A stretch of DNA of 64,000 bases from NCBI GenBank assembly GCA_014871385.1, contig CM026426.1:45556484-45620483 (forward strand), read 5' to 3'. The notes beneath the pieces were generated by a model that did not search any database, had not been told where the DNA came from, and worked only from the letters and a program-made list of their open reading frames with translations. This DNA is from Ceratodon purpureus (taxonomy: Eukaryota > Streptophyta > Bryopsida > Pseudoditrichales > Ditrichaceae). Below are positions 30,313-64,000 of the stretch, one piece after another; the first letter of the stretch is position 1, and every line of letters begins with the position of its first letter. The position numbers and the translations under genes were made by a program.

Positions 30313-30330
30313 CCAGAGGCACCCCAGTTA

Positions 30331-35802: not shown

Positions 35803-35834
<32 letters not shown>

Positions 35835-38467: not shown

Positions 38468-39122
38468 TGTTGGGACACAGAAACTCACTTTTCATCCGGT
38501 TAACACCAAAAACAAGCAGAAACTTCCTTCCTATCCGTGTCATTCCGAGTATGGTCCAGGGATTCAATAGTGTTTTATCAGGTAGCCACTCACAACCAAT
38601 CCGGTTTCCTTCTCTGCATGGATTGTATCTCCGGAACCGGATCTTTCTTCTTTCTATCTTCTATTTCTCTCTCTCTTATCTTCCTTGCTCGGTAGATTAT
38701 GTTGAACCAATCCCAACGTACCTTGCAGGAGACCACCTTTCAACTGACCTAGAAGGCTCTCGTCAGCAGCTCATACAAGTGGTTCCTTTCGATCTATGAG
38801 ACTACCACAACAAACCGATCTGGATCCGAGAGAACTAGGATCCGGCTATCTCTAGGAGACCCGTACTACTATCCGTACCTCTGCTCATTGACTGCGGAAC
38901 CGCTTCGGAAGTTCAGGAAGCCCGATCAAATACTTCTCAATCCGCTACGACCTTAGCGACGGCAATACCGCGTTAGACATCTGTGGAGGTTAGGTTCAAC
39001 AAAAACCCTAATTCCTAATCAACTACCTAAAATCCTTCTTCAACGATTAATCCGGATCTGAGATCCAGTTTCTACTCCTTTAAATCCGGAAAGTGACAAG
39101 TGGCAACGGGAAAAGGAAGGAT

Positions 39123-41322
39123 CTACTGAGTCTTCCTCTTCTTTGTTTTATCGTGAATGTCCTTTGACTGCGTCGTCTTTAGAGTCGGTGCTGACCTTCC
39201 TGCCTTCTCAGACCACTCAGCCCTCCGAGCCTTCCGTGGTGCTTTCTCCTCGGCCTTCTTCTCCTTGGACTTGCTCTCCGATGCCCTAGTGATGATCTGG
39301 GTCTTAGGGGACTTGATCGGGGTACCAATTGGGGTCAGCGTACGGGTAACGGATCCGGTTGTCCCGGATGGAGAACTCCCAGAAGAATCCAACTCGGCTA
39401 TTTCTTCATCAGAACCTAGGTCAATTGTGTCTGACTTGACCGGCTCCTTCCTCTTCCTCAATGTGCGCCTTGTCTCCACTCAGATGACCGGGGACTCCGT
39501 TACAATGGTCTCAGTTGGTGTGGGCGTAACACTAGGCGTCTGGGAGGTGGGAGACAAAGTTATAACCCGATACGGAACCACCTTGGTGCAACCCGGTGGA
39601 GACGGAACGATCTCCCATTCCGATCCAATAGACCCGTCCTCTTGTCTTAGGCTTGCGAGAGTCTTGACTACCAGAGCCGGTGCTCTATAGAAGGTACGGG
39701 TGATTTCTTCTGTGACCACCCGTTCCTGGGATCGTGCCTGGATCACTTCCGTATGGAGAATGGGGATTGGTACACCTGGCTGCGCCATGCTGGCCCCTAG
39801 AGGTATCAGCTCCGCCTCCACCTGACGCAACAGGTCACCAATCGTCCCGACTGGAGACCAATAACCTGGGGATTGAACTCCGGCTGGCACTATAACCTCA
39901 TCCCCAACCATCCGTGGTGACTGAATCAGCTCCTGCGGCACCTTGAACGTCATCCCACTAGATTCTCCTACCACGGCCTTCAAGGGAGATACGAGATGGA
40001 TTGAACCAGTCACTTGGTCCCCGGATTTTGGTTTAAGCAGCTTCTTCAAAAGCCTCAGGGTCTTGTTCATCGCCAAATTGTAGTTGCACAAGACCGTAAT
40101 GATCCTCTTCCTGTTGGCTTCTCCGGTCTTGGACAAAATGCCCTCATCAAACATCCGGGCCTTGTTGACCACATCACCCGGTATCCCAATTAGCTTCCAG
40201 ATGTCGTTCACGATCTGCTCCTGCCTTGCATGAAACTTACGAATCTCCTCGCTCTTGGCCGCTAGATCCGTGGTGAGTTCCGCTACCTAGATCTCCAATA
40301 ACTGCTTCTCGGCCCGGAGTTGAAGCGCCTCCTTTAGGAACTCAATCTCTTTGAGCAGTTCTTCAGGCACACATCCCCCCATTGACGTGCACACCATCTT
40401 GAGCAAGGACTCGATTTGCTCGTAGTTGGCTTTGACGTAACGGGTATTCTCCCAGAGTGCCCGGAACGGGTCATCCGGTAAGCCTTGCTCGGAATTGACC
40501 ACGTTCCTCGCCGTATCGTCTCGGACAGGTGAAGGTTCCGCGTTGTGAGAGGTTGGCTGTTGGGATCGTGACTTGGAGTGGAATTTTGCTGGAGCAGCTT
40601 CCGGGTGTAGCTCTACTTCCGGTTCTACCTCCGTGGATCCCGTATCCGTATCGTCCTCACTCTGTTCCTCTTCCTGACTGTTCTCATCGTTCTTGAAATA
40701 TAGAATGGCTTCGGCCGCCTTCATGTTGTTCTCCTCATCCTCCGTCAGAACTTCCTTCTTATTGTAAAGGTGATACAGGAACAAAGTGATGGAGGTCGCC
40801 TTCTTTTCGATCTTGGGTGGTAACTTTTGCACGACTTCCTCCACTATCCGCGCCCAGTCTGTCACCAGTAAGGCCGCTGAAGATGGTATTTCCTATTGTA
40901 ATGATGAGTCGCTTCAGTTTTGACGGGTATAGGATTGGAATGAGAAAAGCTAAAACCTGTCTTTCTCTCTTATCCCTATACGCATCTACCGAATACCCAT
41001 CGTTCCTATGGAACTTCCCGCTGAACCTATCCTAGATATACTTATCCGTCCTGCCGGCCCAACCGAATCCTTTCTAAACAAACCCGTAAGTATCCGCCCA
41101 CATATCCGTGGTCCACGGAGTTGGGTGCCCTCGGATCGTATTGTCCTACTGGTTCCCCGGCCCATCTACCAACTCTCTCACCATCGCATCATTCTTCAGC
41201 AATAGGGGCCGGGCAAGTAATCTGTGGCTTCTCATCCGGGTCAGATCATTGATCAACTCCTGCATCCCTTCTTCTGTTTCCCGAATCGCAGGGCTAAGGA
41301 CCTTAAGCGCTATGGGCGTCAT
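39123..41322 (-). pseudogene. Diverged copy of the LTR-encoded protein gene
   Basis: From ATG 41322 the family N terminus is recognisable (MQELINDLTRMRSH, ARPLLLKNDAMVRELVDG) but carries stops and a frame change before 40865. From 40865 one frame runs to 39123 through TAG at 40287-40289 and TGA at 39480-39482. It retains the acidic linker, the CTSMGGCVPEELLKEIEFLK block, and the basic C terminus beginning RRTLRKRKEP. All domains of the younger copies are present in the same order, showing that the ORF is an old constituent of this LTR family. Confidence 0.7.
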
Positions 41323-41468
41323 TGCTAAATGTCACGTTGCTCACTCTTTGACCCGACAGCAAGAAACCCGGCAATCCAACTGCCGGTGAATCAAAAAAGA
41401 CACCTCGCCACTCATTCACTCTCTACTCACAGTTCGCAAAAAGGACTACAAATCCTAAACATCCTCGC

Positions 41469-41478
41469 TTATATACTC
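41469..41478 (-). promoter_or_regulatory. TATA box in the old solo LTR
   Basis: TATATAAGC on the minus strand, about 150 bp before the LTR-ORF ATG at 41322. The same spacing is found in the other two complete LTRs. Confidence 0.5.
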
Positions 41479-41812
41479 AGTGAATCATTAATCCAAATCA
41501 TCGTTTAATTACAGCCGCCACCATACCCGTCCGACCGTTATCCGATCATGATGTCTTCTGGGTTGGATCAGATTCCGCACGTGGTTACTGTAACGGTCAA
41601 CTTTTGCCCAGATCGAGATTTGGTTTCTCGTTCCAAGATCACGTTCCGCGTTAACTATTTTACTGATTTTCAAGTATCCGGTTGTGACTATCTCTTCACT
41701 CGGATTGTTTCTAGTTCATTTTTACAAACTTAACCATAAAATGAAAAAGTGATTGAATTCTAACTCCGGTTGGGGAATATCCGGTTTATTCTTAACTTTC
41801 TCGGATCCCATA

Positions 41813-44660: not shown

Positions 44661-44763
44661 CAGTTTAGCTCGACTCAAGCTAAACTGCAAAGTTCTCAAT
44701 GTCATTATGTGTTCTTCACTATGTAGGTACTAACGCACTTTAGCTTAAGTCGAGATAAAATGT
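44661..44763. repeat. Two palindromes in an intron of the second ParB-type gene
   Basis: Copies at 44661-44688 (near consensus) and 44736-44763 (diverged arm CGAGATAAAATG), lying between the exon-like segments that end near 44640 and resume near 44806. Confidence 0.7.
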
Positions 44764-46168: not shown

Positions 46169-46281
46169 CACTTTAGCTCAAGTCAAGTTAAATTGTTTCA
46201 TTCTTAGTTGCTTTGGAATGTGTACCGCAAAATAAATCACAACATATAATTCTACACTTTAGCACAACTCGACGTAAACTG
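46169..46281. repeat. Two palindromes in a later intron of the same gene
   Basis: Copies at 46169-46195 and 46255-46281, both with the starting arm CACTTTAGC. They follow the methyltransferase-like exon directly. Confidence 0.65.
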
Positions 46282-47848: not shown

Positions 47849-48820
47849 AAAGTTATCCCAATCCTAATCCGTCCCCCCTTTACTTGCCTTGCAGGTGCCA
47901 AGGCTAGGATCTACAAATAGTGGATCTGGGGCAAGGAAGTCCGTCGACACCCATTGTCCTTCATCCAATTCCTGCCGCCACTCGCTTCCTGAGACGAGCA
48001 TTGGTGAGAGACGTAGACAGAAGTTGCAGCGTCTTCTTGATAGTCCATTGATGTAGATGGAGGGAATGTTGTGGACACGTCCGCGTCAACGAGCATTTGT
48101 CATGTCAAGATTTGAGTTGTACAGGGGGACTCTTTAGTGATATAGTTATTAGTACGTACAGTGTAGGAGTGACGCACACAATGAATAGATGATTTTAATA
48201 AATGTCTATGTTATTTTAATGTAATTCTTTTTTGAATCGAAATGATTCTTGTGTACATCAAGATTTCCTGTATGCATTAGATGCGTGAATCTCATGCAAA
48301 GTATTTGTTGTCTCTGATATCACAAATCTCTTTAGTTCGACTATACATTGGGTTGAGCTACAGTGTAAAGATTGGTAATGAATAGTTTATTACTATGAAT
48401 GCAAGAACGTGGTGATTGTACTTTACTTTTCTTTCTCGTCTTTAAGTGCCTTGAAGATGGGATCCGAGAAACTTAAAATAAACCGGAAGAGCCTCATCCG
48501 GAGTTAGTATTCCATTAATTTTTCATTTTTTTGGTTAATTAGGTAAAAACTAGCTAGACACTAGCTGCATTAGGAGTTAACGCAAACCGGATACTCCAGA
48601 AACCTAAAAACAATTAACGCAGGAAGTATTCTCGGAACCTTGATTTCGGAAACTCGGAAGAGAAAATACGGAATAGGTTGACGACTCGAGAACTGACCGT
48701 TACCGTAACCGCGTCTAGGATCCGAAACGACGCGGAAGTCATCATGACTCGGATAGGCGTCTAGCTCGGTACGGTGGCGGCTGCAATTACGGGCCGCCGC
48801 AGCTTTTATGATGCCCGTGG

Positions 48821-48828
48821 TATATAAG
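48821..48828 (+). promoter_or_regulatory. TATA box in solo LTR
   Basis: TATATAAG, 151-158 bp before the ATG at 48979. Context and spacing are shared with 56323-56330 and 41469-41478. Confidence 0.6.
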
Positions 48829-48978
48829 CGAGGGTGTTAGGGTTTGGAGTTCCTTTTTGCGGACTGGGAGTAGGGAGTGAAAGAGTGGTGAGGTGTTTTG
48901 TCTTTTCCGATTCACTGGCAGTTGGATTGCCGGGTTTCTTGCTGTCGGATCGCAAAGGGAGAGAAGTGAGACGTAGAA

Positions 48979-49575
48979 ATGGCGCACGTCCAGTGTAGAG
49001 TTCTTAGTCGCGGCACTCCGGTGAAAGAGTCGCAGATGGAAGAATTGATTGCCGATCTCACCCGGATGAGGTGCCAGGGTTTGCTGTCACGGCCGTGGTT
49101 GCTGAAGAATGAGGCGATGGTGAGGGAGGTCCTGGACGGACCGGACAATAGGTGGGACAACACGATCCGGGGCAAGCCCACGCTGTGGAATGCGGAACAG
49201 TGGGCGGAAACTTACGACTTCGAGCAGAACGGACTTCTTTGGGCAACCCGGACGGATAGGTACGTGCAGGATAGGTTTCACGGGAAGATCCATAAGAATA
49301 ATGGATACGAGATAGACGCCTGCAAGGATAGGAGGCAAAGACAGGTCTTAGCCTTCCTCGTTCCGATCCTGTATCCGCTGAAACCGGAACAGGTCACCAT
49401 TACGGTCGGGAACACCATCTTTGGAGCGTACACGGGGGAACGTCCGGTGAATTGGGCCGCGCTCATGGCGGAAGTCGTGCGGAAGATGGTGCCATCGATC
49501 GGAAAGAAGCCGACCCCTATCGCCCCTTTCCTCTACCACCTTTACCACGCATATAGTTTGCTCGGAGAGTTTTGA
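48979..49575 (+). CDS. LTR-encoded protein, N-terminal part (truncated by deletion)
   Basis: 198 codons from ATG 48979, opening MAHVQC. It matches the first part of the LTR ORF at 56171-53974 at roughly 85-90% identity by eye and stays open across the spot where that copy has lost a base. It ends shortly after FLYHLYHAY because a deletion joins this point to the C-terminal part in another frame, reaching TGA at 49573. Conserved motifs include NGYEIDACKDRRQRQ and ERPVNWAALMAEVV. Some resemblance to the 'putative plant transposon protein' domain of plant repetitive genes is possible but untested. Confidence 0.6.
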   Translation: MAHVQCRVLSRGTPVKESQMEELIADLTRMRCQGLLSRPWLLKNEAMVREVLDGPDNRWDNTIRGKPTLWNAEQWAETYDFEQNGLLWATRTDRYVQDRFHGKIHKNNGYEIDACKDRRQRQVLAFLVPILYPLKPEQVTITVGNTIFGAYTGERPVNWAALMAEVVRKMVPSIGKKPTPIAPFLYHLYHAYSLLGEF

Positions 49576-49916
49576 GGAAGAGGAAGGATCCGGCAAAGAA
49601 GGGACCCATTACGATTTCCAGGTCCGACTCGGAAACCTATGCGAGTTCTCCGGTTGGGACAGCCGGAACTGGGACTCGGACCCCTACGACAGGAACCCCT
49701 CCCGCGCATATGTTGCCGAAGTCCCCCAATTCTCCCAAGAACCAAATCGTTACCCGGCTGTCCTTGGAGGCCCAGGCGAAGGAGTCAAAGGCGAAACGGA
49801 GTGCGAGGCGCCAGGCGGAGCGGGCAGCAAGAGCAGGAGGATCCGAGCCACGGATGACCAAGTCGAAGGAGAAAGACCGCGAGCAGGAGAGCCACAAGAA
49901 GACAAAGATGGGGTAG
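49572..49916 (+). pseudogene. LTR-encoded protein, C-terminal remnant
   Basis: 114 codons matching the end of the ORF at 53974. It opens RKRKDP, followed by ITISRSDSET, then TGTPPAHMLPKSPNSPK, then a Lys/Arg-rich tail ending HKKTKMG. The basic tail could act as a nuclear localisation or nucleic-acid-binding segment. It is out of frame with 48979-49575. Confidence 0.6.
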
Positions 49917-50850
49917 ATTCCTCTCGCTGCAACTGGCCGTCACTTTCCGGATTTATAGGAGTAGATTTCGGATCGGGAGATCCGGTTTAGTCGTAAAGTA
50001 GGATTCTAGGTAGATAACTAGGGATTAGGGTTTTTGATTGAACTGCCGGCGCCGCCGCTTTTGTGAAAGCCCCTGCTTACTTAAACGGGGAAGGCGATGC
50101 AGTCCGGGTCTTCGTTTTGCATGTTTTCTCCCTATATTCCTTATCAGTAAAGTATTCGTGTTTTGCAAGTACTGTGCGTGGTTTCCCGCTAAGTAGGAAT
50201 GATCGGGAAGGATATGAGAGTTCCGCTGTAGCTCGGATAGGAAGGTGATGGGAGTTGTGACGAGACCCGAACCGAAAAAGGTAATGGGATTGAGCGGAAA
50301 GATTTAGTGGATTGTCGTTGGAGTGAAGCCTCACTGCTCCGTCCCCAACCCAACCTCACGCGGAATAGCCGTCGCTAGGGTCGAAGCGGATCAAGGAGTA
50401 CTTGATCGGGCTCCTTGAACTTCTGAAGAGGTTCCGTACACTGTGAGAGGGGGATTCCGAACGTGGTACGGGTTGCCTAGGGATAATCGGATCCTGGTTC
50501 TCCTAGAGCCGGATTGGTTTGTCGTTGTAGTCTCACGGATTGGAAGGGATCGTCTGTGTGACCTGCTGTCCAGAGTATTCTAGGACAGTTGTGAGACGGT
50601 AATTGTTCCGAGACATTGGGGTTTGTGGATGAAACACCTGATGAGAGAAAGAAAGAGTGAGAGAGATAGTTAAGGAGTTACGTTCCGAAGACACTATCCG
50701 AGCAGCGGCAAGGCTCGGAACAATTAGAAGTAACTACTTGGTGAAACACTATTGAATCCCTGGACGATACTCGGAACCTAGTAACAATACGGAAGTTTAC
50801 GCTCAATAAGAGTGCTATCCGGATGTTAGTTGCGTTTCCGTGTTGCGACA

Positions 50851-51104
50851 TATAGATCTGGTCGATCTAAATGAGAGAGTCATCAATTTACCAATACCAT
50901 GTTTTAAATGAATCAATAATGATTTTAGGTAAGGTCTAGGTAAATGAGAAATCATTAATGTGGCCATTTCATTACATGCTTATTTGCCAAATTCAACGAT
51001 ATCTACTAAAATAATGGATATGATGTTGATTACGGTTTAGAGAGTTTGTTCAGATTCTTTTTTGCGCTGGAGGTATCCCAAATGTTTACAAGATTTTTTG
51101 ATTA
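50851..51104. other. Short spacer between the solo LTR and the gene A fragment
   Basis: AT-rich sequence with no recognisable feature. Confidence 0.4.
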
Positions 51105-53037
51105 GCTGCAGGTCCATAAGCAGGCTTGTGGAGATTTAATCATATCTAAGGATTTTTAGGTTCACAAAGGTACCAAGGTCTTCACGCAATACTCAGTACA
51201 TTTCCTAAGTTTTACTAGATGCAGGCTATGCCCTGGTCATCAAACGAGGTTCTAAACAAGTAGAGCTGCTAATGAGAAGCTTGTTTTGAGCACAGAGGTG
51301 TCTTGGAGACACCAACATTGACTTGTGCACCGATGAGGACATTTACCTTGTTGACCCACTAACATGGAAGCCACCTCGACTCAAAACGCTTAATGAGTTC
51401 ATTGAATTCATATGCCATTGAGAACACAGTATCCAAGGATATACATACAGGCCGATGTATCATTGTGTACATGGTCCTACACCCCATGAAGAGGACAAGG
51501 AGATGCAATGCAATCAATTGAGTGAAGAAGTGCTTCTGCTTAAAGGCGAAGCTGTTGCGTGCAACTCAAGGGTGACCCAAGATCTCCGAATGGAGAGAAT
51601 GCATTGATTGACTTAGAGAAGACATGCATGGATTCGCGGTCTGAAATGTAGGTTGTCCGCGATAGCCATTCCAAAAGGGTGGATGTGAAGTGGAATATTC
51701 GCTAAACAACACCCAAGCCCAATAAAATCTAGATTCGTTCTACGGGAGGGTCAAATTCGTCTAAGTTTGGTGTATGTCTAAGGTTGAGTAGGTAGATGAA
51801 GGTTTTTAAGGGAAAATGTCTTAAGGATAACTCTTATCTTTGAGTTTCTGTAGCATTCTGCCAATTAAGTCTTAAGGTACCAACCCCAAGAAATTGTACT
51901 AAGTCTTAAGCTTCAAGTGATACAAGTCTACGGTCCTTGACCATTTAAGTAGACTTTATCATTGCCATCTTGGCTATGGAGTTCCTCCATATAATCTTCT
52001 TCTTCACTTCTTATCCATTTATCAAATAACTCAATGAATTATCAACACACAACTTACCTCAAGCAAAGATGATACTTCAATCTCCTTTACTCCAAGCCAT
52101 TCCTTCTTTAACTTAAGAAAACACACTTAAGTTAGTAATTAATGTATTCATAATACAATTGAATTAAAGCTTCTATCACACTTGAATTACATGAATGCTT
52201 TATACAAACATTAATTCAATATTCAATTCCTTTATCTTATTCAATTTACACAATATAAGAATTCACTCAATTCTCATTGCAAATCTTAATTCCTTCACAC
52301 ACTAAGTACTTCTTGACTTCCAATTTCAACTCAAGTATTTAAATCACTCTTTCAACTTCCAATCTTATTACAATTCAATAATTTGCCAACACTCTTTAAA
52401 CAATTAAGGTAATTCCTTAATTCTCATGAAGTACTATTTAATTTTTAAGTAATACAATGCTAAAACATTACTTCTCTCAAGTCAATGTTCCAAGCATTTA
52501 ACTCACAACACACACATTCAACACTTTCTATACAATTCCTTGTACAATCTTAAAGAATTCACTCATTCTTTTATTGCAAAGACTAGCTCCAAGCTAGGAC
52601 ACACATAATTCACAATGAGGTGATCTCCACTTTGGAGAAGATGGTGATATACTTGAATCCTTAAGGGGTGCACCCTTTCCCAATGGGTGTGCCTTAAGGT
52701 AACATCTATTCTTAAGGTCGTGACTCTCTATAAAGGTGTACTCCTTAACATCTCTTAGCTAGGGGTGTGTCTCTTACTACATTCACACCTAACCTCTCTC
52801 TTTAAGGTTTATTCTTTAACTATTTGCTTATTCTAATGTGGACTAGGTTTCTTTTAAGACCTATTCACATTCTAATGATTATATCCTACTTAAAGCACTT
52901 GATTTTTTATTTTTTAAAGTTTCTATTGCTTTTTTTTTTTATTTTAAAGAATTTGGGCTTAAATCTAAAAAGTAGCTCTACAGTGGAGCAATTGGAGTGC
53001 CATGTGCAAAGTTTCCAAGAAGAGACTGAGTGCAGCT
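51105..53037 (+). pseudogene. Fragment of a second gene A copy, split by one solo LTR and ended by the large retroelement
   Basis: 51105-51683 and 52983-53037 together correspond to the minus-strand segment 16170 to about 15560. Shared words include GATTCAATC/GATTTAATC, GCTATGCCC(T/C)GGTCATCA, AACATTGACTTGTG, CATTGTGTACATGGTCCTAC and GGAGCAATTGGAGTGCCATG. The frame has stops and shifts. At 51684 it is interrupted by a solo LTR and resumes after the GTGGA duplication. At 53038 the Ty3/gypsy element begins, so the rest of the gene, if kept, lies beyond 64000. Confidence 0.75.
51684..52982. mobile_element. Solo LTR of an unrelated AT-rich family
   Basis: 1,299 bp beginning TGTGAAGTGG and ending AGCTCTACA, flanked by the perfect five-base direct repeat GTGGA at 51679-51683 and 52983-52987. 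The flanking gene A sequence rejoins exactly when this segment and one repeat are removed. It has no coding content and is not similar to the other LTRs in the window. It contains CTTAAGG-rich segments near 52660-52810. Orientation is undetermined. Confidence 0.78.
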
Positions 53038-53973
53038 TGTCGGAACACGGAAACGCAACTAACATCCGGATAGTGCTCTAATTGAGCGTAAACTTCCGTA
53101 CTGTCACTAGGTTCCGAGTATCGTCCAGGGATTCAATAGTGTTTCACCAAGTAGTTACTTCTAATCGTTCCGAGCCTTGCCACTGCTCGGATAGTGTCTT
53201 CGGAACGTAACTCCTGAACTATCTCCTTCTCTATTCTTCTCTCATTAGGTGTTTCGTCCACAAACCCCAACGTCTCGGATCAGTTACCGTCTCACAACTG
53301 TCCTAGAGTACTCTGGCCAGCAGGTCACACAAACGATCCTCTCCGATCCGTGGGACTACAACGACAAACCAATCCGGATCTGGGAGAACCAGGATCCGAT
53401 TATCCCTAGGCGACCCGTACCACGTTCCGACTCCCCCTCTCACTGTGCACGGAACCTCTTCAGAAGTTCAGGGAGCCCGACCAAGTAGTTCTTGATCCGC
53501 TTCGACCCTAGCGACGGCTATTCCGTATGAGGTTAATTTGGGGGCGGAACAGTGAGGCTTCACTCCTACGACAATCCGCTAAATCTTTCCGCTCAATCCC
53601 ATCTCCTTTCCGGTTCGGGTCTCGTCGCAACTCCCATCACCTTCCTATCCGAGCTACAGCGGAACTCTCATATCCTTCCCGGATCATTCACACTTAGCTG
53701 GAAATCACTTACAGTACTTACAAAACACAAAATACTTTACTGATAAGGAATATAGGGGGAAAACATGCAAAAACGAAGACCCGGACCGCATCGCCTGCCT
53801 GGTTTAAGTAAGCAGGGGCTTCCACAAAAGCGGCGGCGCCGGCAGTTCAATCAAAACCCTAATCCCTAACTACCTACCTAGAATTCTACTTTACGACTAG
53901 GACGGATCTCCCGATCCGGAATCTACTCCTATAAATCCGGAAAGTTACGACAAGTGGCAGTGAGAGGAATCTA

Positions 53974-56171
53974 TCACTTCTTTGTCTTCTTGTGGCTCTC
54001 CTGCTCGCGATCCTTCGACCTGGTCACCCGCGGCTCTGATCCGCCCGCCCCTGCTGCTCGTGCCGCCTTGCGCCTAGCGCTCCGTTCCGCCTTTGACTCC
54101 CTCTCCTGAGCCTCCAAGGACAACCGGGTAATGATCCGGGGCTTGGGAGAATTGGGCGATTTCGGGATCATATGTGCGGGAGGGGTTCCGGACGTCGGAG
54201 TCCGAGTTTCAGTTCCGGTGGTCCTGACCGGAGAGCTCTCACGCGTCTCTGAATCGGACTCTGAAATCGTAATCGGGACCTCCTTCCTTTTCCGCAACCT
54301 CCGGTAAGCACCGACACTGTTCGGAGGGGAATCCGCTGCCGGCGTTCCGGTGGGAGTAGGCGTCACCGTTCCGGTCTTGGCTGTGGGTGAAGGGGTCAAT
54401 CCCCCCTCCTGAGTCACTCGGGTCCGTCCGGGTGGTGAAATAGGTCGTCCCCATTCCGGTCCCGCTACCTCCCCTTGGTAATTCGCAATGATCACCTCCT
54501 CTCCGAGTCGTGGAAGAACATCCGGCGGCACGGTCCGAGTCACCTGTTCCGAAACCGTCCTCTCCTCGATCCGCCTCTCGGTGACTGTCGTTCCGGTCAC
54601 CTCCACCTGACCTGTGGGGATCGCGCAGCTCTGCTGGACTGTACTGGTTCCGGGTGACGCCACTTGTGCTTGGTGTTCCCGGAGCACATCTGCAATCGTC
54701 CGATTTGTCATGGCGGCCTCTTCGACTGTCATCCGCTCCTCGACTTGGAGGTTACTCCCTATCGGGGTTCGGAACCCCACTCCGCGAGATTCTCCTACCA
54801 CGGCACGAGAGGGCGACCCGGTGAGCGGAAGGCTCCGACCAGCGACTCCGAGACTGGGACTTCCGGTACTCGGATTGAGCAGCTGCCGGACCTTCTTCAG
54901 GATCATGTTCATCGAGTGCTCGCATTTGGAGAGGATCATGATGATCCTTTGCTTGTCCTCGAAATCAGCCGGCTGCACTACGTTTTCATCAAACAGCCGG
55001 GCCTTGTTGATTACCGCTCCCGAACTTCCCACCAACTTCCGAAGCTCCCCCAAAGTCTCCTCCTGCTCGGCGTGGAACTTACGGATCTCATCACTCTTGG
55101 CTGCCAGTTCCTTTGTCAGCTCCTGCAACTGAAGCTCTAGCCGCTTCTTCTCACTCCGGAGATTTGGGGCGTCCTTCAACAACTCCACTTCTCGGATCAC
55201 CTCTTCCGGTAAGCACCCTCCCAGTGATGTACAGACCCTCCGGAACAGGGTTTCGATCCGATCGTAGGAAGCTTGCGCCCGGTGAGTTTCCTCCCGAATC
55301 CCCCGAAATAGGTCCACCGGAAATCCCCGATCGGAACTGACCTCTCTCCGTTCCGGATCTCCCCGGGCCGTAGACGGCTCCGCGTGTCGTGACGCAGCCT
55401 GCTCCGATCGCGATCTGGACTGGGCCCTAGTAGCGCCAGGGTTCGGAACCTCCTTCGTATCGTCCTCATCTTCCGAGGACGTTGTATCCGAGAGCTCACC
55501 TCGCGGATCGGGTTCCATTCCGGGCGGAATCTCCGAGAATTTGAGGCAGTTCTTCGCGTGCGTATATGTCTCGTCCTCCTTATCGGTCAGCAAGTCATAC
55601 GCATGGTAAAGGTGAAAGAGGAAAGGGGAGAGTGGGGTCGGCTTCTTTCCGATCGTCGGCACCATCTTCTGCACCACTTCCGCCATGAGTGCGGCCCAAT
55701 TCACCGGGCGTTCTCCTGAGTACGCTCCGAGGATGGTGTTCCCGACCGTAATGGTGACCTGTGCCGGTTTTTGCGGATACAGGATCGGAACGAGGAAAGC
55801 TAAGACCTGCCTTTGCCTCCTATCCTTGCAGGCGTCTATCTCGTATCCATTGTTCCTATGGATCTTCCCGTGGAACCTATCCTGCACGTACTTATCCGCC
55901 GGGTCGCCCAAAGGAGTCCCTTCTGCTCGAAACCGTAAGCTTCCGCCCACTGTTCCGCATTCCACAGCGTGGGCTTGCCTCGGATCGTATTATCCCACTG
56001 GTTGTCCGGACCTTCCAGGACCTCCCTCACCATCACCTCACTCTTCAGTAACCACGGCCGTGCCAACAATCCCTCACACCTCATCCGAGTGAGGTCGGTG
56101 ATCAGTTCCTCCATATCCGATTCCTTCACTGGAGTTCCGGGGCTAAGGATGCTACACTGCACGTGCGCCAT
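53974..56171 (-). pseudogene. LTR-encoded ~730-codon protein gene, one base deleted
   Basis: ATG 56171 opens MAHVQC and runs about 90 codons to a one-base deletion near 55899, found by comparison with 48979-49575. The second frame then stays open for over 640 codons to the stop at 53974. Parts: conserved N-terminal globular region (~1-200); acidic linker; block VCTSLGGCLPEEVIREVELL; coiled coil (~340-430, RSEKKRLELQLQELTKEL); Thr/Pro-rich region; basic tail with RKRKEVP and a Lys/Arg-rich end (HKKTKK). No nuclease, protease or envelope-type membrane segment is visible. Function is unknown; DNA binding or a capsid-accessory role would be guesses. Whether the 5' LTR copy is intact cannot be seen here. 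Confidence 0.75.
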
Positions 56172-56322
56172 CTCTACTCCTTACTTCTCTCCCTCTACGA
56201 CCCGACAGCAAGAAACCCGGCAATCCAACTGCCGGTGAATCGGAAAAGACAAAAACACCTCACCGCTCTTTCACTCTCTACTCCCAGTTCGCAAGAAGGA
56301 ACTCCAAACCCTAACACCCCCG

Positions 56323-56330
56323 CTTATATA
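56323..56330 (-). promoter_or_regulatory. TATA box of the LTR promoter
   Basis: TATATAAG on the minus strand, 152-159 bp upstream of the LTR-ORF ATG and about 370 bp from the LTR start. The same position in the 5' LTR would place transcription start ahead of the LTR ORF. Confidence 0.6.
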
Positions 56331-56696
56331 CCCCAGGCATAATAAACGCTGTGGCGGCCCGTAATTGCAGCCGCCAACGTACCGGGGTAAACGCCTATCC
56401 GAGTCATGATGACTTCCGCGTCGCTTCGGATCCTTGACGCGGTTACAGTAACGGTCAGTACTCGGATCGTCCACCCGTTCCGTATCTTATCTTCCGAGTT
56501 TCCGGAATCCAGGTTCCGGGAACACTTCCTACGTTAACTGTTTTAACGTTTCTGGAGTATCCGGTTTGCGTTAACTACTAATACTGCTAGTGTCTCGCCA
56601 GTTTTTACCTAATTAACCAAAAAAAATGAAAAATTAATGGAATACTTACGCCGGCTGGGGTTCTTCCGGGTTATTCTGAGTTTCTCGGATCCCACA

Positions 56697-56715
56697 TTAC
56701 CCCATTTTCAAATGT
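56697..56715 (-). promoter_or_regulatory. Polypurine-tract region before the 3' LTR
   Basis: On the minus strand TTTGAAAATGGGGTAA directly precedes TGTGGGATCC. It is a modest purine tract but correctly placed for plus-strand priming. Confidence 0.55.
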
Positions 56716-56732
56716 GAGAGTCCCCGCGAACA

Positions 56733-59700
56733 CTATTCTTCTTCCTCCCCTTCCGGGCCTTCGCTTTCTTCGGTGTCTGTGAACTCCTCAGGGTTGTAAT
56801 TCTTCACTCGGGATCCGTTCACCCGGGTTTCGAAGCTATTTCCCTGGAGGTCCGCCAGTTGTAATGATCCGTTTTCAAAGATCCGCGTAACCCGGTAAGG
56901 TCCCATCCATCTCGTGTGTAACTTTCCCGGAAACTTTTGGTGCCGATTATCATATAAGAGCACCAAGCCTCCTTCTAGCACTTTATTGTCCTTAGGAATT
57001 TTCTTGTCGTAGGCCTCCTTACGCTTTGCCTGGACATCTACAGCCTGCTGTAGAGCGCCTCTCCTGACTTCTTCCAGATCCTGTAATGCCACGATCCGGT
57101 ACCCCGGATCCTCTACTCTCGTCCCGTGACGGGCAGCCATAACCCGTAAGGTTTCTACCTCCAGCTCCACTCCGTGAACTGCGGATTGTCCAAAGACTAG
57201 GAAGAACGGACTCTTACCCATGGTTTTCTTCTCACTGGTATTGTAGGCGTGTACAGCTGAAGGGAGCTTCCGATCCCAATCCGTCTTATGAGCCGAGACC
57301 ATCTTGTTCAGAATCTTTCCGACGATGCCATTAGCTCGTTCCGTCAGTCCATTCGCTTTCGGATTATAAGGGGTCGTCTTCCGGTGCTTGATGAGATACC
57401 GTTCCGTGATATTGATGATGACATCGTTCAGGAAATGTTTTCCCCGGTCACTCACCAGTTCTAACGGATGTCCAAATCTCATCATTATTTCTTCAAAGAG
57501 AAATGTGGCTGCGGCTGCGGCGTCATTCTTCACCGTTGCTCTTGCCTCTACCCATCTGGTCGCATAATCCGTAGCCAGGATAATGTATCTCCTCTTCCGG
57601 GCTGTGACCGGATTGATCGGTCCGATAAAGTCTATCCCCCATTTTTCAAACGGAGCCAAGGGGATAATGGGAGTAAGGGGCCAGTGGTTCCGGAACGAGG
57701 GTGCCCCGGTTCTTTGACACTGGTCACACTGCCCTACAAATTCCTTCACGTCCCGGGAGAGGTAAGGCCACCAATATCCGGCTGATCGGATCCGCTTGAT
57801 GGTTGTCTCCGAGGCGAAATGGCCGCCCGAGGGTCCGGCGTGTAAGGCCCTCATGACCTGCCTTCTTTCGGATTCCTCGAGGCACCTTCGTAATACATCA
57901 TCCGGTCCCATCCGGAAAAGTACTCCTCGGATCAGTGTGAAAGGAGCTACTGTATTCTGAAATACCATCTTCTCCTCCCGCGTGAATCCCTCCGGGTACC
58001 TTCGTTGTGTTAAATACTGGATAATTTCCGAATAATCGGATTCCTCCGTTCCGGAAATGTGAAATACCTCCGCCTCTTCCGAAAACTCATCCGGAAACGT
58101 GGCGGTGATATCCGAAACTGCTTCCGGGCCACGCATCCTTGACAGGTAGTCAGCGTTGGCATTGGCCTTACCCGGTTTCACTACTACCTCGTAGTTGAAT
58201 TCCTGGAGCAGCAAGATCCATCGTGCAATACGCCCTGAGAGATCCGGTTTGTTCACCAAATACTTCAGGGAGTCATGATCCGTATGGAACACGATCTTGT
58301 ATCCGAGAAGGTAGTGTCGGAACTTCTTGCAGGCGTATACTACCGCCAAGGCTTCCCGTTCAGTGGTAGTATATTTCCGTTCCGCCAGGCTCATCTGTCT
58401 GCTGGCGTAATAGATCGGATGCTCCTTCCGATCCTCCCCTTGTTGCCACAGAATCGCCCCTAGGCACCACCCGGAAGCGTCGATTGTCACATGGAATTCC
58501 TTCGACCAATCCGGTGCAGATAGGATCGGGGCGGTGGTCAAGGCCTTCTTCAGTTCTTCGAACGCCTGTTGTCTTCGTTCCGTCCACAAAAACTCTTCTT
58601 CCTTCTTCAACAGTTCCGTTAATGGGGCTGCCAATTTGGCATACGCAATAATAAACCTCCTATAGTAACCGACGCATCCTAGGAATCCCCGGACCTCTCG
58701 GACGTTGGTGGGAGACACTAGAATAAGGATAGCTCGTACCTTATCCGAATCGACTTCCAACCCGTTCCGACTTACGATGTGCCCGAGAAGAATTCCGGAA
58801 ATCATCCCCATAAAACATTTTCCGGGGTGTAATTTCAGTCCGGTTTCCCTGCACCTCTGGAAGGTCCTTCGGAGGTACTCGAGATGTTCCTTCCACTTAC
58901 TAAACACCGCGAAGTCATCGATGAAGACTTCTAGAAAATGCCTCAAGAAATCTCGGAAAATATCCACCATCAGCCTTTGGAATGTTCCGGGAGCGTTACA
59001 CAGTCCGAAGGGCATCCTGTTGAAGGCGAACGTCCCCCATTCCGTGGTAAAGGTCGTTTTCAGCTGATCTTCTTCCCGGATCGACACCTGGTTGTAACCG
59101 GAAAATCCATCAAGAAAGCTGTAGCACTCCTGCCCTGCCACGTGATCGAGGATAATGTCCGTAAAAGGTAACGGAAAGTAATCCTTCTTTGTGGCCGCAT
59201 TCAGTTTCCGAAAATCTTGACAAACTCGGATCTTGACTTTCCCATCCGAGCCAACTTTCTTCGGAACGACGACTATGGGCGATACCCACTCGGAATTATT
59301 TACCGGATAAATGAATCCGGCTTTCAGGAGGCTATCGATTTCTTCCTTCACCATCAGAGAATACTTCGGATTGAGCCTGTACTGGCGTTGTCTGACCGGA
59401 ACTGATCCGTCAACCAAATCTATATGATGTTGGCCGAGTTCCGGAGGTATTCCCTTGAGGTCGGATGGTGACCAAGCGAATACGTCTAAATATTCCTTTA
59501 GTAAATCCACATACTCCTTTCTCTGCTCCTTGCTCATGCTTCGCCCTAGCAGAAATGTCTTTCCGGGGGCTACTTCCACCTTCTCATAGTCGGATGGTTT
59601 CTCAACGTTCTTGACTCGTTCCGATTCCTGTTCCTCTCCCTGATCCGTCCATGCGCTCCACACCCGGACTGGGGTGTCCGGATCGAGGCCCATGGCCGGC

Positions 59701-60878
59701 AGGTTTCCCTCCTCGACCTGTTGTCGGAACCATTCGGCTGAGAGGGGGACACTTCCTTCTCCGAGAGAGCGATCCTCCAGTACCGGGTATCTCACGCGCT
59801 CCGGTGATGGTTGGGGTTGCTCACTGATCGGATTATGAAATCGGAAGTCATCCTCGGTAACTTCCGAGAACTGATTCACGAAATAACTAAATACTTCGTC
59901 ATCCTCCTCTTCCGGGTCGGACCAATCAGACGTGTACCCATCCGAGCCACTGGTTTCCCCTAGATATCCATCCATCTTCCACGGAATCCGTTGATTGGTT
60001 TTTCCGAGCACGAACTCCTTGGCTCCCCAATCAACGAGGACTCGCGCCATGTATAGCCAGGGTCTTCCCAACAACATCGGGAAGGGACGGCCCGTACTAA
60101 CTCGGATTATCACGTAATTCAAGAGGTAGGTTACCTCTCCGATCGTGGTCGGAACTTGGGACAACCTTCCCACGGGTTTAACTCTAGATTGATCCGCCAT
60201 TCGTAACACCTGATCGGTGGATTCGAACGAGGTGTATCCGAGTTCAAAGGCCGTATCCTCCAACATCAGGTTCACACCGGATCCTCCATCTACCGGAACT
60301 TTCGGGATAGCACATCCTTCTATTAGCACCGTCAGTTCCGGGGCTCCGTGATCCTCAACCTGTAAGAAGTTAGTAGCTACAGACGGAAGTTTCACCCCTC
60401 GGCGCCTCCGCTTCGTCCATGCCTCTTGGATTACCTTCTGGTAATTCACATTGTCATGGAGCAACTGTCCAATCGTGACATTTGCCTTGAGGGATTTGAT
60501 GTCCCCAAGAATATCATACTCGTCCACTCTAGGATCGGAAGGAATAACCACCGGAACGTCATCAAACCGGACCGAAGGCTTAGTGATCTTCCGGGCAGGG
60601 GGATCCGTGAGCTCTTTTCGAACTTCCTCGCTGATATCTTCCGGAAGGTTCCCTCCTTCCACCCCATTTTCCGCTCTTGGACGGTCATTTTCTTCTGGTA
60701 AAGCTCTGGCTACCGTAGAGGGTTCGGATCCCGAATCCGAATCCACTCTCCTGGATCTCACCCTCCTTCTGGTCTTCCAGGATTTCGGAAGATCCGGTTC
60801 CTGGGCACGTTCTCTAGCGGAACTACGGGTTGATACTCTGTGTACTAATACTTCCGCGCCCTCCTGTAGTTCCGTCAC
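56733..60878 (-). CDS. pol: Pol: protease, reverse transcriptase, RNase H, integrase
   Basis: 1,381 codons counted from GTG 60878, which only marks the first codons after the TGA at 60885-60887. The first ATG lies at residue 205, inside the protease active site, so Pol is probably made only as an extension of Gag. Protease has VDGGSGVNLM (D197) and LLGRPWL. RT has CQDFRKLN (~553), LDGFSGYNQ and FIDD (652-655). RNase H has TIDAS (D800), E840 and HTDHDS. Integrase has H1013/H1020/C1051/C1054, then D1083 (GIDFIG), D1144 (VSDRG) and E1180 (GLTERANG). A C-terminal GPYRVTRIFENGSLQL module ends in acidic residues. All catalytic residues are intact and there is no chromodomain. Confidence 0.95.
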   Translation of the reverse strand: MTELQEGAEVLVHRVSTRSSARERAQEPDLPKSWKTRRRVRSRRVDSDSGSEPSTVARALPEENDRPRAENGVEGGNLPEDISEEVRKELTDPPARKITKPSVRFDDVPVVIPSDPRVDEYDILGDIKSLKANVTIGQLLHDNVNYQKVIQEAWTKRRRRGVKLPSVATNFLQVEDHGAPELTVLIEGCAIPKVPVDGGSGVNLMLEDTAFELGYTSFESTDQVLRMADQSRVKPVGRLSQVPTTIGEVTYLLNYVIIRVSTGRPFPMLLGRPWLYMARVLVDWGAKEFVLGKTNQRIPWKMDGYLGETSGSDGYTSDWSDPEEEDDEVFSYFVNQFSEVTEDDFRFHNPISEQPQPSPERVRYPVLEDRSLGEGSVPLSAEWFRQQVEEGNLPAMGLDPDTPVRVWSAWTDQGEEQESERVKNVEKPSDYEKVEVAPGKTFLLGRSMSKEQRKEYVDLLKEYLDVFAWSPSDLKGIPPELGQHHIDLVDGSVPVRQRQYRLNPKYSLMVKEEIDSLLKAGFIYPVNNSEWVSPIVVVPKKVGSDGKVKIRVCQDFRKLNAATKKDYFPLPFTDIILDHVAGQECYSFLDGFSGYNQVSIREEDQLKTTFTTEWGTFAFNRMPFGLCNAPGTFQRLMVDIFRDFLRHFLEVFIDDFAVFSKWKEHLEYLRRTFQRCRETGLKLHPGKCFMGMISGILLGHIVSRNGLEVDSDKVRAILILVSPTNVREVRGFLGCVGYYRRFIIAYAKLAAPLTELLKKEEEFLWTERRQQAFEELKKALTTAPILSAPDWSKEFHVTIDASGWCLGAILWQQGEDRKEHPIYYASRQMSLAERKYTTTEREALAVVYACKKFRHYLLGYKIVFHTDHDSLKYLVNKPDLSGRIARWILLLQEFNYEVVVKPGKANANADYLSRMRGPEAVSDITATFPDEFSEEAEVFHISGTEESDYSEIIQYLTQRRYPEGFTREEKMVFQNTVAPFTLIRGVLFRMGPDDVLRRCLEESERRQVMRALHAGPSGGHFASETTIKRIRSAGYWWPYLSRDVKEFVGQCDQCQRTGAPSFRNHWPLTPIIPLAPFEKWGIDFIGPINPVTARKRRYIILATDYATRWVEARATVKNDAAAAATFLFEEIMMRFGHPLELVSDRGKHFLNDVIINITERYLIKHRKTTPYNPKANGLTERANGIVGKILNKMVSAHKTDWDRKLPSAVHAYNTSEKKTMGKSPFFLVFGQSAVHGVELEVETLRVMAARHGTRVEDPGYRIVALQDLEEVRRGALQQAVDVQAKRKEAYDKKIPKDNKVLEGGLVLLYDNRHQKFPGKLHTRWMGPYRVTRIFENGSLQLADLQGNSFETRVNGSRVKNYNPEEFTDTEESEGPEGEEEE

Positions 60879-60884
60879 GAACCG

Positions 60885-61622
60885 TCATTTGTCCGGATTC
60901 TCTATCCCACCTGAGTGACCATAGTTTAGCCCAGTCATCTCTCTCGGAGGGACCTCCACCTGTTTGAAAGTCGGGCGGGGTTGTGCCGGTTTGGCACACT
61001 GAGGAGCCGTATGACCGTACTCTCCACAATTTTGGCACGGAAGGATCCGCGGTGCTCCTTGCCCCTGTCGCTCAAACGGACAATTAGGTGCGTAATGATC
61101 CGGGCTCCCACAGTTGAAGCAGTACCCGTGGGTCGGCTTCTGGTACATCGGCCTACCCGGAACGTTCTGTGGGATCCGGTATCCGGTGGGAGGACAGGCT
61201 ATCTGGATCGGAGCTTTCCCTCGTCCGTAAGTGGTCTGAACCTGATACACAGGTTGGTACTCTTCCATCTGAAACTCTTCCTCTTCCGGATAGGCAAAGT
61301 ATACCTCTTCTTCCGGATGGACGTAGTGAATTCGTTTCTGGCGGGGTTCAGTACACTCCGGAGGATAATGTCCTTGCTTTCCGCAGTTAGCACACCACAC
61401 ATTAGCTCTGCTGGTTGGAATCATCTTACGAGGTTTCCGATTCTCGGAAAGGTGAACGTTGAGTTCGGCAATTGATTCTCGGATCTCCTTCATCTCCTTC
61501 ATGACCTTCCGAGAATCGTCATCCTCCACCTTCACCTTGATCAACTCTCGGTTCCGTCTAGGCCGGGAGTCTCTATTGGAACCGCCTCGGCGTTTCGAGG
61601 CTCCCCTGGAGTCCTCTTCCGA
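60885..61622 (-). CDS. gag: Nucleocapsid part of Gag with three zinc knuckles
   Basis: Same frame as Gag (upstream) and Pol (downstream). It follows TAG 61623-61625 and ends at TGA 60885-60887. It opens with an Arg/Ser-rich basic stretch and then carries three CCHC knuckles: CANCGKQGHYPPEC, CFNCGSPDHYAPNC and CQNCGEYGHTAPQC. Acidic/Tyr-rich spacers (VYFAYPEEEEF) separate the first two. It is expected to bind element RNA. There is no close upstream ATG of its own, which supports its being the continuation of Gag. Confidence 0.85.
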   Translation of the reverse strand, partial: SEEDSRGASKRRGGSNRDSRPRRNRELIKVKVEDDDSRKVMKEMKEIRESIAELNVHLSENRKPRKMIPTSRANVWCANCGKQGHYPPECTEPRQKRIHYVHPEEEVYFAYPEEEEFQMEEYQPVYQVQTTYGRGKAPIQIACPPTGYRIPQNVPGRPMYQKPTHGYCFNCGSPDHYAPNCPFERQGQGAPRILPCQNCGEYGHTAPQCAKPAQPRPTFKQVEVPPREMTGLNYGHSGGIENPDK

Positions 61623-62651
61623 CTAATCGGAACTGGATGAAGTGGAATCGCTCTTACTGGTAGAGTCGGAATCTTCCGAGGAGGACTCGTGCCTCCGCCG
61701 GCGCTCTCTCTCCTTCCGGATCTTCTTACCCCGCTTCTCGGTATGCTTCAGAGACTTCCGTAGAGATTGGGCCGAGTTCTCATAGTTCTGAGCCGCTTCC
61801 ACGGCTTCCTGAAGTGTGGCGGGACGGGTTTGTCGGATCTGAAACCCCATCTCCTCCGGGAATCTGGCGACAAACCATTCCACTTGTACACTCGGAGCTA
61901 TGGCTGTAGTGAGTTTTTGTATGAGCGCCTTTACTCTCTGACTGTACTTCCGTACTGACTCGGAAGATCTCATCGTCATCCGACTCAGCTTTCCGAGTGC
62001 GCGAGCTTCTCCTCCGGCCTCACGGAACGTACGTCGGAACAAGGTCACGAAACTGGTCCAGTCGTTACGTGTACGTTCCGGAACGTCTTGGTACCACTGG
62101 AGAGCTTCTCCCTTCAGAAGACCTTGGAATATTCTCCTCTTCGCATCCGGATCTTCCTGATTGGCCAGAGCGATGGATTCGAACTCACAGAGCCATTCGT
62201 CCACGTCTTGACTTCCGTCTCCTTTGAATCTGTTGTACTTCAGTAGGGTAGAGGGTGCCATTGGATTGTCTTCCTCGTCTTCTTCCTCTTCCTCGGTCTC
62301 CTCTTCTACTCCTGCGTCGGCTTCGACTTCGTCAGCTACGACTTCTTCTTCTTCCGTATCTGGAGCTGTACGCGGTCCGGCTGCGGAGGTTCCGGCCAAC
62401 GATACCACGATTACGTCTCCTTCTCGTTCTACAGCAGTCTGGATCCGGGGAAGTAGATTCGTCCCCGGTAGATCGTGTACCAAAACTCTTCCCCTCTTCT
62501 GTAGCAACCGAGTGGATCTTCTTCCCCCTAACTCTTCCAGTTGCGCCCCAACCATCGAAGAGATTGGGAATTCTTCTTCCGATTCCTCGGAAGGCAGGAT
62601 CTGTACGTAAGACTTCCGCCTACCGCATATCCACCTAAATGAAGCCTTCAC
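61623..62651 (-). CDS. gag: Gag (capsid part)
   Basis: 342 codons from ATG 62651 to TAG 61623-61625. An acidic N-terminal region includes a long Glu run near residues 110-125. A Retrotrans_gag-type domain occupies about 135-290, with KYNRFKGDGSQDVDEWLCEF, GLLKGEALQWYQDV and VEWFVARFPEEM. A basic segment and a Ser/Asp-rich end follow. The frame continues beyond the TAG into the zinc knuckles. About 100 bp separate the primer-site region and the ATG. Confidence 0.9.
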   Translation of the reverse strand: MKASFRWICGRRKSYVQILPSEESEEEFPISSMVGAQLEELGGRRSTRLLQKRGRVLVHDLPGTNLLPRIQTAVEREGDVIVVSLAGTSAAGPRTAPDTEEEEVVADEVEADAGVEEETEEEEEDEEDNPMAPSTLLKYNRFKGDGSQDVDEWLCEFESIALANQEDPDAKRRIFQGLLKGEALQWYQDVPERTRNDWTSFVTLFRRTFREAGGEARALGKLSRMTMRSSESVRKYSQRVKALIQKLTTAIAPSVQVEWFVARFPEEMGFQIRQTRPATLQEAVEAAQNYENSAQSLRKSLKHTEKRGKKIRKERERRRRHESSSEDSDSTSKSDSTSSSSD

Positions 62652-62720
62652 GGTCTGACTCCACTTTTCTTCAAATCTGCGCTCACTTATCTTCCGAGTA
62701 TCTACCTAGTTCACAGCTTA

Positions 62721-62743
62721 TCGAATCCCCGGCAGCGGCGCCA
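62721..62743 (-). promoter_or_regulatory. Primer-binding site, tRNA-Asp-like
   Basis: On the minus strand TGGCGCCGCTGCCGGGGA lies ten bases after the end of the 5' LTR. Its complement, CCCCGGCAGCGGCGCCA, closely resembles the 3' end of plant tRNA-Asp, a primer used by several plant Ty3 lineages. The ten-base gap is longer than usual. Confidence 0.8.
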
Positions 62744-62753
62744 GATTTTTACG

Positions 62754-64000
62754 TGTCGGAACACTGAAACGCAACTAACATCCGGATAGTGCTCTAATTG
62801 AGCGTAAACTTCCGTACTGTCACTAGGTTCCGAGTATCGTCCAGGGATTCAATAGTGTTTCACCAAGTAGTTACTTCTAATCGTTCCGAGCCTTGCCACT
62901 GCTCGGATAGTGTCTTCGGAACGTAACTCCTGAACTATCTCCTTCTCTATTCTTCTCTCATTAGGTGTTTCGTCCACAAACCCCAACGTCTCGGATCAGT
63001 TACCGTCTCACAACTGTCCTAGAGTACTCTGGCCAGCAGGTCACACAAACGATCCTCTCCGATCCGTGGGACTACAACGACAAACCAATCCGGATCTGGG
63101 AGAACCAGGATCCGATTATCCCTAGGCGACCCGTACCACGTTCCGACTCCCCCTCTCACTGTGCACGGAACCTCTTCAGAAGTTCAGGGAGCCCGACCAA
63201 GTAGTTCTTGGTCCGCTTCGACCCTAGCGACGGCTATTCCGTATGAGGTTAATTTGGGGGCGGAACAGTGAGGCTTCACTCCTACGACAATCCGCTAAAT
63301 CTTTCCGCTCAATCCCATCTCCTTTCCGGTTCGGGTCTCGTCGCAACTCCCATCACCTTCCTATCCGAGCTACAGCGGAACTCTCATATCCTTCCCGGAT
63401 CATTCACACTTAGCTGGAAATCACTTACAGTACTTACAAAACACAAAATACTTTACTGATAAGGAATATAGGGGGAAAACATGCAAAAACGAAGACCCGG
63501 ACCGCATCGCCTGCCTGGTTTAAGTAAGCAGGGGCTTCCACAAAAGCGGCGGCGCCGGCAGTTCAATCAAAACCCTAATCCCTAACTACCTACCTAGAAT
63601 TCTACTTTACGACTAGGACGGATCTCCCGATCCGGAATCTACTCCTATAAATCCGGAAAGTTACGACAAGTGGCAGTGAGAGGAATCTATCACTTCTTTG
63701 TCTTCTTGTGGCTCTCCTGCTCGCGATCCTTCGACCTGGTCACCCGCGGCTCTGATCCGCCCGCCCCTGCTGCTCGTGCCGCCTTGCGCCTAGCGCTCCG
63801 TTCCGCCTTTGACTCCCTCTCCTGAGCCTCCAAGGACAACCGGGTAATGATCCGGGGCTTGGGAGAATTGGGCGATTTCGGGATCATATGTGCGGGAGGG
63901 GTTCCGGACGTCGGAGTCCGAGTTTCAGTTCCGGTGGTCCTGACCGGAGAGCTCTCACGCGTCTCTGAATCGGACTCTGAAATCGTAATCGGGACCTCCT
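62754..64000 (-). repeat. 5' LTR, partial (inner 1,247 bp)
   Basis: Nearly identical to 53038-54284. It includes the non-coding end and the C-terminal ~100 codons of the LTR ORF, whose stop lies at 63690. The remaining ~2.4 kb, with the promoter and ORF start, falls outside the window. Confidence 0.92.

Follow-up and report, generated by a model that had tools for sequence, protein, structure and literature searches.

A young Ty3/gypsy element on the minus strand of a 64,000-nucleotide stretch of the Ceratodon purpureus genome (contig CM026426.1, positions 45,556,484 to 45,620,483; the whole stretch is called the window here) carries a coding sequence of about 730 codons inside its long terminal repeat (LTR). 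Comparison of the copies shows that this gene has been under purifying selection, and the element is enriched in the short motif WTCCGR beyond what its proteins and base composition require. Structure prediction suggests a likeness between the N-terminal domain of the LTR protein and VANC21, an anti-silencing factor. We propose, tentatively and with slightly less than even confidence, that the LTR encodes a VANC-like factor which recognizes the WTCCGR sites spread over its own element and opposes silencing; the fold in this proposal is a model prediction, and the binding and anti-silencing role are conjectural.

A protein-coding gene within the LTR

The gene, the element around it and two further LTR copies occupy the following positions in the window:

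53038..56696, minus strand: 3' LTR (copy 1), 3659 bp, running from TGTGGGATCC to CCGACA, with ends set by copies 2 and 3
56325..56330, minus strand: the single sense-orientation TATAWA of the LTR, aligned with those of copies 2 (48821) and 3 (41475)
55899..56171, minus strand: codons 1-91 of the LTR gene, ATG context GTAGAGATGGCG, the first ATG past the TATA
53974..55932, minus strand: remainder of the LTR gene in a shifted frame (open over 53974-55989, 671 codons)
53736..53741, minus strand: AGTAAA, candidate poly(A) signal 3' of the gene, also in copy 2 (50146); function putative
38468..41812, minus strand: old solo LTR (copy 3), target-site repeat ACAAC, with the whole decayed gene (41322-39138)
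48456..50850, plus strand: LTR copy 2, in which a deletion removed the middle of the gene and left codons 1-195 and about 624-730
62754..64000, minus strand: 5' LTR, interrupted by the window end and containing the gene's final 100 codons (from identity to the 3' LTR and tblastn)
62726..62743, minus strand: primer-binding site TGGCGCCGCTGCCGGGGA, adjoining the 5' LTR
61623..62705, minus strand: gag (Retrotrans_gag), stopping at an in-frame TAG (Pfam, open reading frame list)
60885..61622, minus strand: CCHC zinc-knuckle part of gag, stopping at an in-frame TGA (TGACGG; Pfam, open reading frame list)
56733..60884, minus strand: pol frame with reverse transcriptase, RNase H, H2C2 and integrase core (Pfam)

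The two LTRs of the young element are 99.84% identical (53038-54284 against 62754-64000, 2 mismatches in 1247 bp), and within the window they overlap only over the last 100 codons of the gene. That the entire gene lies inside the LTR is shown by copy 3, because this solo LTR, which starts TATGGGATCC and ends CCAACA between 5-bp flanks of ACAAC, contains all of the decayed gene. The ACAAC flank sits in an ACA-rich stretch, which makes the repeat alone modest evidence; the stronger evidence for the LTR ends is that both ends of homology in copy 3 agree with copies 1 and 2. A target-site repeat was also looked for at the ends of copy 2, and none was seen.

An intact relative in public data, P0001, has 731 amino acids and is 93% identical to the window's copy. 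Searching the window with P0001 by tblastn gave four matches, at 56171-53977, 63992-63693, 48979-49907 and 41322-39138. An earlier note on this DNA had placed all or part of one open reading frame (ORF) in four LTR copies. All four places do match the same coding sequence and the gene does lie within the LTR, with the qualifications that the match at 48979-49907 lacks the middle of the gene and that the 5' LTR has only its final 100 codons in the window. The same note had treated 53974-56171 as one open frame, which proved to be two: the ATG frame runs from 56171, its homology ends at about 55899, and the frame is broken near codon 91.

We estimated the ratio of nonsynonymous to synonymous divergence (dN/dS) by the Nei-Gojobori method with bootstrap for the three pairs of window copies. 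The ratio was 0.18 between copies 1 and 2 (bootstrap 0.12-0.26; 301 codons), with 31, 23 and 77 differences at the three codon positions, 0.32 between copies 1 and 3 (0.24-0.41; 694 codons) and 0.21 between copies 2 and 3 (0.13-0.29; 285 codons). These values are not near 1; they reject neutral drift and show purifying selection on the gene. Because decay after insertion should raise dN/dS, constraint in the active lineage was probably stronger than measured. Together with the intact P0001, the low ratios uphold the view that this is a long-standing protein-coding gene of a Ty3/gypsy LTR lineage. A chance reading frame was also rejected, as the longest open frame in the LTR spans 671 codons against a maximum of 327 over 500 dinucleotide shuffles. 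Contrary to simple expectation, copies 1 and 2 diverge by just 8.4-10.2% in the non-coding LTR and by 35% at synonymous sites, for which constraint on the non-coding part and recombination are candidate explanations. The decayed gene of copy 3 has five in-frame stops (four TAG and one TGA) and a frame shift near codon 156; the lack of TAA among these stops is the pattern expected from cytosine deamination of CAG, CGA or TGG.

The layout of the LTR suggests how the gene could be expressed. Each LTR has exactly one sense TATAWA, at an aligned position common to all three copies, and in copy 1 it lies 159 bp upstream of the gene's ATG with no ATG between. Provided that transcription begins at the usual place after the TATA, the LTR gene would be the first cistron of the element RNA, in R/U5. 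The first in-frame ATG of gag (62555) is preceded by nine other ATGs downstream of the LTR gene, and translation of gag from such an RNA could involve splicing, reinitiation or a separate transcript.

The remainder of the element is that of a Ty3/gypsy retrotransposon, with gag, reverse transcriptase and RNase H ahead of integrase, LTRs and a primer-binding site, TGGCGCCGCTGCCGGGGA, which we take to be of the tRNA-Asp type. A Pfam scan of the 1383-residue pol frame found neither the chromodomain of chromoviruses nor the additional RNase H of Tat elements. Gag, its zinc-knuckle part and pol share one frame on the minus strand, split by the TAG (61623-61625) and the TGA (60885-60887). A TGA followed by CGG is a readthrough-prone context in plant viruses; the plainer reading is that both stops are CAG and CGA codons decayed by C-to-T change. 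No matches came from Rfam at gathering thresholds or from a tRNA scan of the 64-kb window.

The LTR protein and its relatives

The LTR protein can be divided into three parts, the first two with approximate borders:

55558..56171, minus strand: N-terminal domain, roughly codons 1-205, modelled with a match to VANC21
54871..55320, minus strand: long-helix region resembling a coiled coil, roughly codons 285-434, containing the blocks CTS-GGC-PEE and NKARLFDEN
53974..54303, minus strand: Ser/Pro/Thr-rich, basic tail (from the composition of P0001) with an RRLRKRK cluster, a candidate nuclear signal; localization putative

As the earlier note had read it, the young and old copies share one order of parts: N-terminal domain, CTS-x-GGC-x-PEE block, coiled-coil region and basic tail. 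A predicted structure of the N-terminal domain, built from the copy 2 sequence (pTM 0.77), resembles VANC21 (9lnj). The resemblance is weak, and it suggests a VANC21-like fold for this domain.

Beyond P0001, the relatives of the LTR protein include P0002 (723 amino acids, 55% identical) and seven proteins at 31-33% identity on contigs of 143-803 kb, and a profile search returned 884 proteins at E ≤ 0.01, with 120 of them listed. No relative was found in the viral contigs or the genome contigs searched, and pol likewise had none in the viral contigs. Pfam offered no convincing family, either in the complete match lists of five members or among the matches listed for 31 members (even when set to E ≤ 10, HMMER drops most matches above about 0.1), which agrees with the earlier note's statement that the product has no recognized enzyme motif. 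That note's suggestion of a PF20167-type relationship gained no Pfam support. PF20167 (Transposase_32), PF03078, PF10536 and PF04195 are all absent from the five complete lists, and PF20167 is not among the families listed for the 31 members; we rejected membership in it. A sequence search of the PDB gave four matches at E ≤ 10, with no convincing relative and no VANC protein among them.

One explanation for these results is that the gene is another of the varied extra ORFs that plant LTR retrotransposons carry, conserved for an ordinary role (envelope-like, movement or structural) and located in the LTR by chance. The absence of a convincing Pfam family is in keeping with this, as are the ORFs of at least 250 codons in 3372 plant Ty3/gypsy elements described in the accessible text of PMC6317226. 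Nevertheless, both the predicted fold and the motif results presented below fit another role, and we regard this explanation as improbable.

Two other places in the window deserve mention here. A short, degenerate relative of the N-terminal domain, belonging to another family, lies at 17251-17460 on the plus strand (tblastn E 8e-9 with P0064). Separately, 15405-16037 (minus strand) and 51074-51683 are 77% identical over 612 bp; the former has a 210-codon, coiled-coil-like frame with no convincing Pfam match.

WTCCGR across the element and its possible reader

VANC proteins act through short motifs that are dense in their own element, according to the accessible part of PMC5735166, and for this reason we searched the young element for such a motif. 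With both strands of the non-coding LTR counted, ATCCG occurs 20 times against 3.5 expected and CGGAA 23 times against 4.6. The consensus WTCCGR was picked post hoc from k-mer tables; as a guard on this choice, the largest 5-mer z in shuffled 4-kb stretches was 3.0-4.4, and CGGAA reaches 9.6-11.6 in the three 4-kb stretches of 52001-64000. The resulting feature covers the element:

53038..62753, both strands: 176 WTCCGR sites over one LTR plus the internal region (counts)

Base composition predicts 19.4 sites over this length. The density is 16.9 per kb in the LTR and 18.8 per kb in the internal region, and the eleven 1-kb bins between 53 and 64 kb all fall at 13-23 per kb; bins within copy 2 have 11-13, bins within copy 3 have 7-8 and the others 0-4. 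Non-coding DNA of the LTR contains 30 sites against 4.6 expected, and the excess recurs in two more copies (26 against 4.3, the 26 lying in the non-coding parts of copy 2, and 17 against 3.2). With protein and codon usage held fixed, WTCCGR remains in excess in pol (81 sites, 28.3 expected, highest of 500 shuffles 41), in gag (19, 6.2 and 15, respectively), in the zinc-knuckle part (14, 4.1 and 10) and in the LTR gene's second frame (29, 13.2 and 24). These results show that the enrichment exceeds what protein and composition need. A Markov-2 expectation absorbs most of the signal by construction, and TCCG is still the top 4-mer under it (311 against 241). Tandem repetition was rejected as the origin of the motif, since the 11 rows reported by Tandem Repeats Finder have a longest array of 40 bp.

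Of 51 WTCCGR sites in copy 1 that can be aligned with copy 3, 15 are shared; for 11 permuted control motifs the corresponding figure is 5 of 68 (p 0.0024). Divided by region, sharing amounts to 4 of 7 for U3 with the leader, 6 of 13 for the 3' part, 2 of 5 for the first coding part and just 3 of 26 for the remaining coding part.

Because the motif contains a CpG, its enrichment could be mutational, with CpGs kept only where they are bound or unmethylated, or it could reflect a habit of codon use or composition. The observed/expected ratio (o/e) of CpG in the young element is 1.02, with TpG+CpA at 0.81. Copy 2 has values of 1.09 and 0.79 and copy 3 of 0.86 and 0.95, compared with 0.70 and 1.15 in bases 1-26800 and 0.61 and 1.20 in 41900-48400. 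A second young LTR element, at 26887-36332, stands at 0.21 and 1.31. The lack of a TpG/CpA excess is expected for a rarely methylated lineage, in a comparison whose stretches differ in base composition and coding content. Masking TCCG lowers the CpG ratio of the young element from 1.02 to 0.76, and therefore part of the high CpG is the motif itself. Retention alone, however, cannot lift a word above base composition, and TCCG stands 3.7 times and WTCCGR 9.1 times above it; we rejected retention as the sole cause. The excess also persists in non-coding DNA and with protein and codon usage fixed. A mutational origin in any of these forms seems to us highly improbable.

The LTR protein might alternatively activate or repress transcription from its own LTR promoter, with no role in methylation, as Tas and Tax do in a comparable way in complex retroviruses. 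The position of its ATG as the first behind the LTR TATA and the 11 motif sites in U3 plus leader speak for such a regulator. Yet the internal region is as dense in WTCCGR as the LTR, far beyond what a promoter would need, and the fold match is to an anti-silencing factor. We give promoter regulation without an effect on methylation rather little credence.

The VANC-like proposal can be stated as a series of steps. Each LTR of the family would be a self-contained gene, with a TATA, a start site downstream of it, a short leader, a frame of about 730 codons opened by the first ATG, and a putative poly(A) region. Its product, presumably nuclear, dimerizing through the coiled coil and VANC21-like in its N-terminal domain, would bind WTCCGR sites. 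The element would have accumulated these sites to the densities given above, about 17 per kb (LTR) and 19 per kb (internal region), and binding would keep its DNA unmethylated or transcribable. Since each WTCCGR contains a CG and a CCG site, one might speculate that binding directly occludes methylation. Because the gene sits in the LTR, each insertion has two copies of it, and solo LTRs formed by recombination could continue to supply the protein in trans. An extended version, which is possible but which we consider doubtful, makes the LTR a free-standing anti-silencing gene and WTCCGR a 'barcode' that selection would have written across the element, into its coding DNA too by way of synonymous codons; full copies and solo LTRs would together shield the whole family from methylation.

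Several results weigh against the VANC-like proposal. Foldseek returned nothing at E ≤ 0.001 with either model, and DUF1985 and DUF287 are missing from the complete Pfam lists of five members at E ≤ 10 and from the 25 families listed for 31 members. The only young copy of the gene in the window is frame-broken, and binding of WTCCGR by the LTR protein is wholly a prediction. The TCCG core favours the antisense strand (121 and 189), a lean that an RNA signal could show. Finally, the element at 26887-36332 has an enriched word of its own and no detectable homologue, which is reason for caution, although it is perhaps a second case. In this element, GACCAG occurs 100 times in the sense orientation (CTGGTC, 6), about twofold over synonymous shuffles and above the maximum of 300 such shuffles in all three frames, and its 5-mer z rises as high as 18.5, for words other than CGGAA.

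The strand lean and the second element's own word would also fit a different reader of WTCCGR, be it integrase, nucleocapsid or a host factor, with an unrelated function for the LTR protein, for example as an accessory Gag-like or RNA-export protein. The strand distribution of the full motif argues otherwise: over the internal region the two orientations of WTCCGR number 55 and 59, a near-balance unlike an RNA signal, and the LTR is less even (24 and 38). An RNA signal is the less likely reading for a 6-mer found in both orientations, its core's strand lean notwithstanding. The VANC21-like fold, moreover, is a separate reason to expect DNA binding by the LTR protein. We think a different reader unlikely.

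The second young element lies on the plus strand, with LTRs 99.4% identical, a gag and a weak protease match, and Pfam gave no reverse transcriptase in its three long frames. Its LTRs (26887-27718 and 35505-36332) contain AACTG/CAGTT 17 times against about 2 expected, in orientations of 8 and 9.

Comparison with known systems

Extra ORFs are well known in plant Ty3/gypsy elements, including the 5' aORF of Tekay, ORF0 of Retrosat2 and the Athila ORFs with PF20167 or PF03078 (accessible parts of PMC6317226, PMC11728184 and PMC3485330). The LTR protein resembles the products of such aORFs and eORFs in being an extra protein upstream of gag-pol; theirs are located relative to gag-pol, with placement in the LTR unstated in the accessible text. 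The sunflower Tekay protein has a nuclear signal, helices and long disordered parts in the account accessible from PMC11728184. In rotifers, ORF3s of LTR retrotransposons are also accessory to gag and pol and are of esterase, exonuclease, coiled-coil, transmembrane or envelope types. Unlike the LTR gene, they sit beside LTRs, which measure 159-551 bp (PMC5408684, accessible part).

Mouse mammary tumour virus (MMTV) sag is an LTR-borne gene located in U3, upstream of the start site. The earlier note's analogy with sag is sound in that both reading frames are contained in an LTR and so present in two copies per provirus. In position the two seem to differ, since the LTR gene is downstream of the only TATAWA in all three copies and would be in R/U5 if transcription starts there; the comparison is one of layout, not sequence.

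The idea that LTR-retrotransposon proteins shape their own methylation is not new. The accessible text of PMC12844716 raises it as an open question with VANC as the model; the Tekay protein that it discusses resembles dsRNA-binding proteins, with no target motif or LTR-contained gene named. In the literature consulted here, sequence-specific anti-silencing has been demonstrated for VANDAL DNA transposons only. Among the matches listed from the open-access literature, searched by literal phrase matching, we recognized no ORF inside a plant LTR and no retrotransposon-encoded anti-silencing factor. Neither the LTR-contained gene nor the VANC21-like model nor the element-wide motif turned up in print in this partial survey.

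If the proposal is correct, a VANC-like factor in an LTR would extend sequence-specific anti-silencing to retrotransposons, and solo LTRs, usually treated as inert scars, would gain a coding function. Spread as it is over the element, the motif yields a direct prediction for DNA binding, and it suggests that selection can act on a DNA-level signal superimposed on protein coding. Looking for k-mers in family-specific excess under synonymous shuffling is also a computational route to such systems in other genomes.

The closest comparison is with the VANC proteins of VANDAL/MULE DNA transposons in Arabidopsis. Like them, the LTR protein is encoded by a mobile element in a frame separate from the transposition enzymes (gag-pol lies elsewhere), and a short motif, predicted to be read by it, is dense in the element's own non-coding DNA. 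Unlike them, it is carried by an LTR retrotransposon, inside the LTR. The sequence domains that mark VANC proteins in the accessible text of PMC5735166, DUF1985 and DUF287, were not among the Pfam matches listed for its family. The VANC motif YAGTATTAY is arranged in one orientation and in tandem repeats, whereas WTCCGR lies outside tandem arrays, in either orientation, and extends into coding DNA. Because the sequence domains and the tandem, same-orientation layout are lacking, the LTR protein should not be filed as a VANC protein, but it may work like one.
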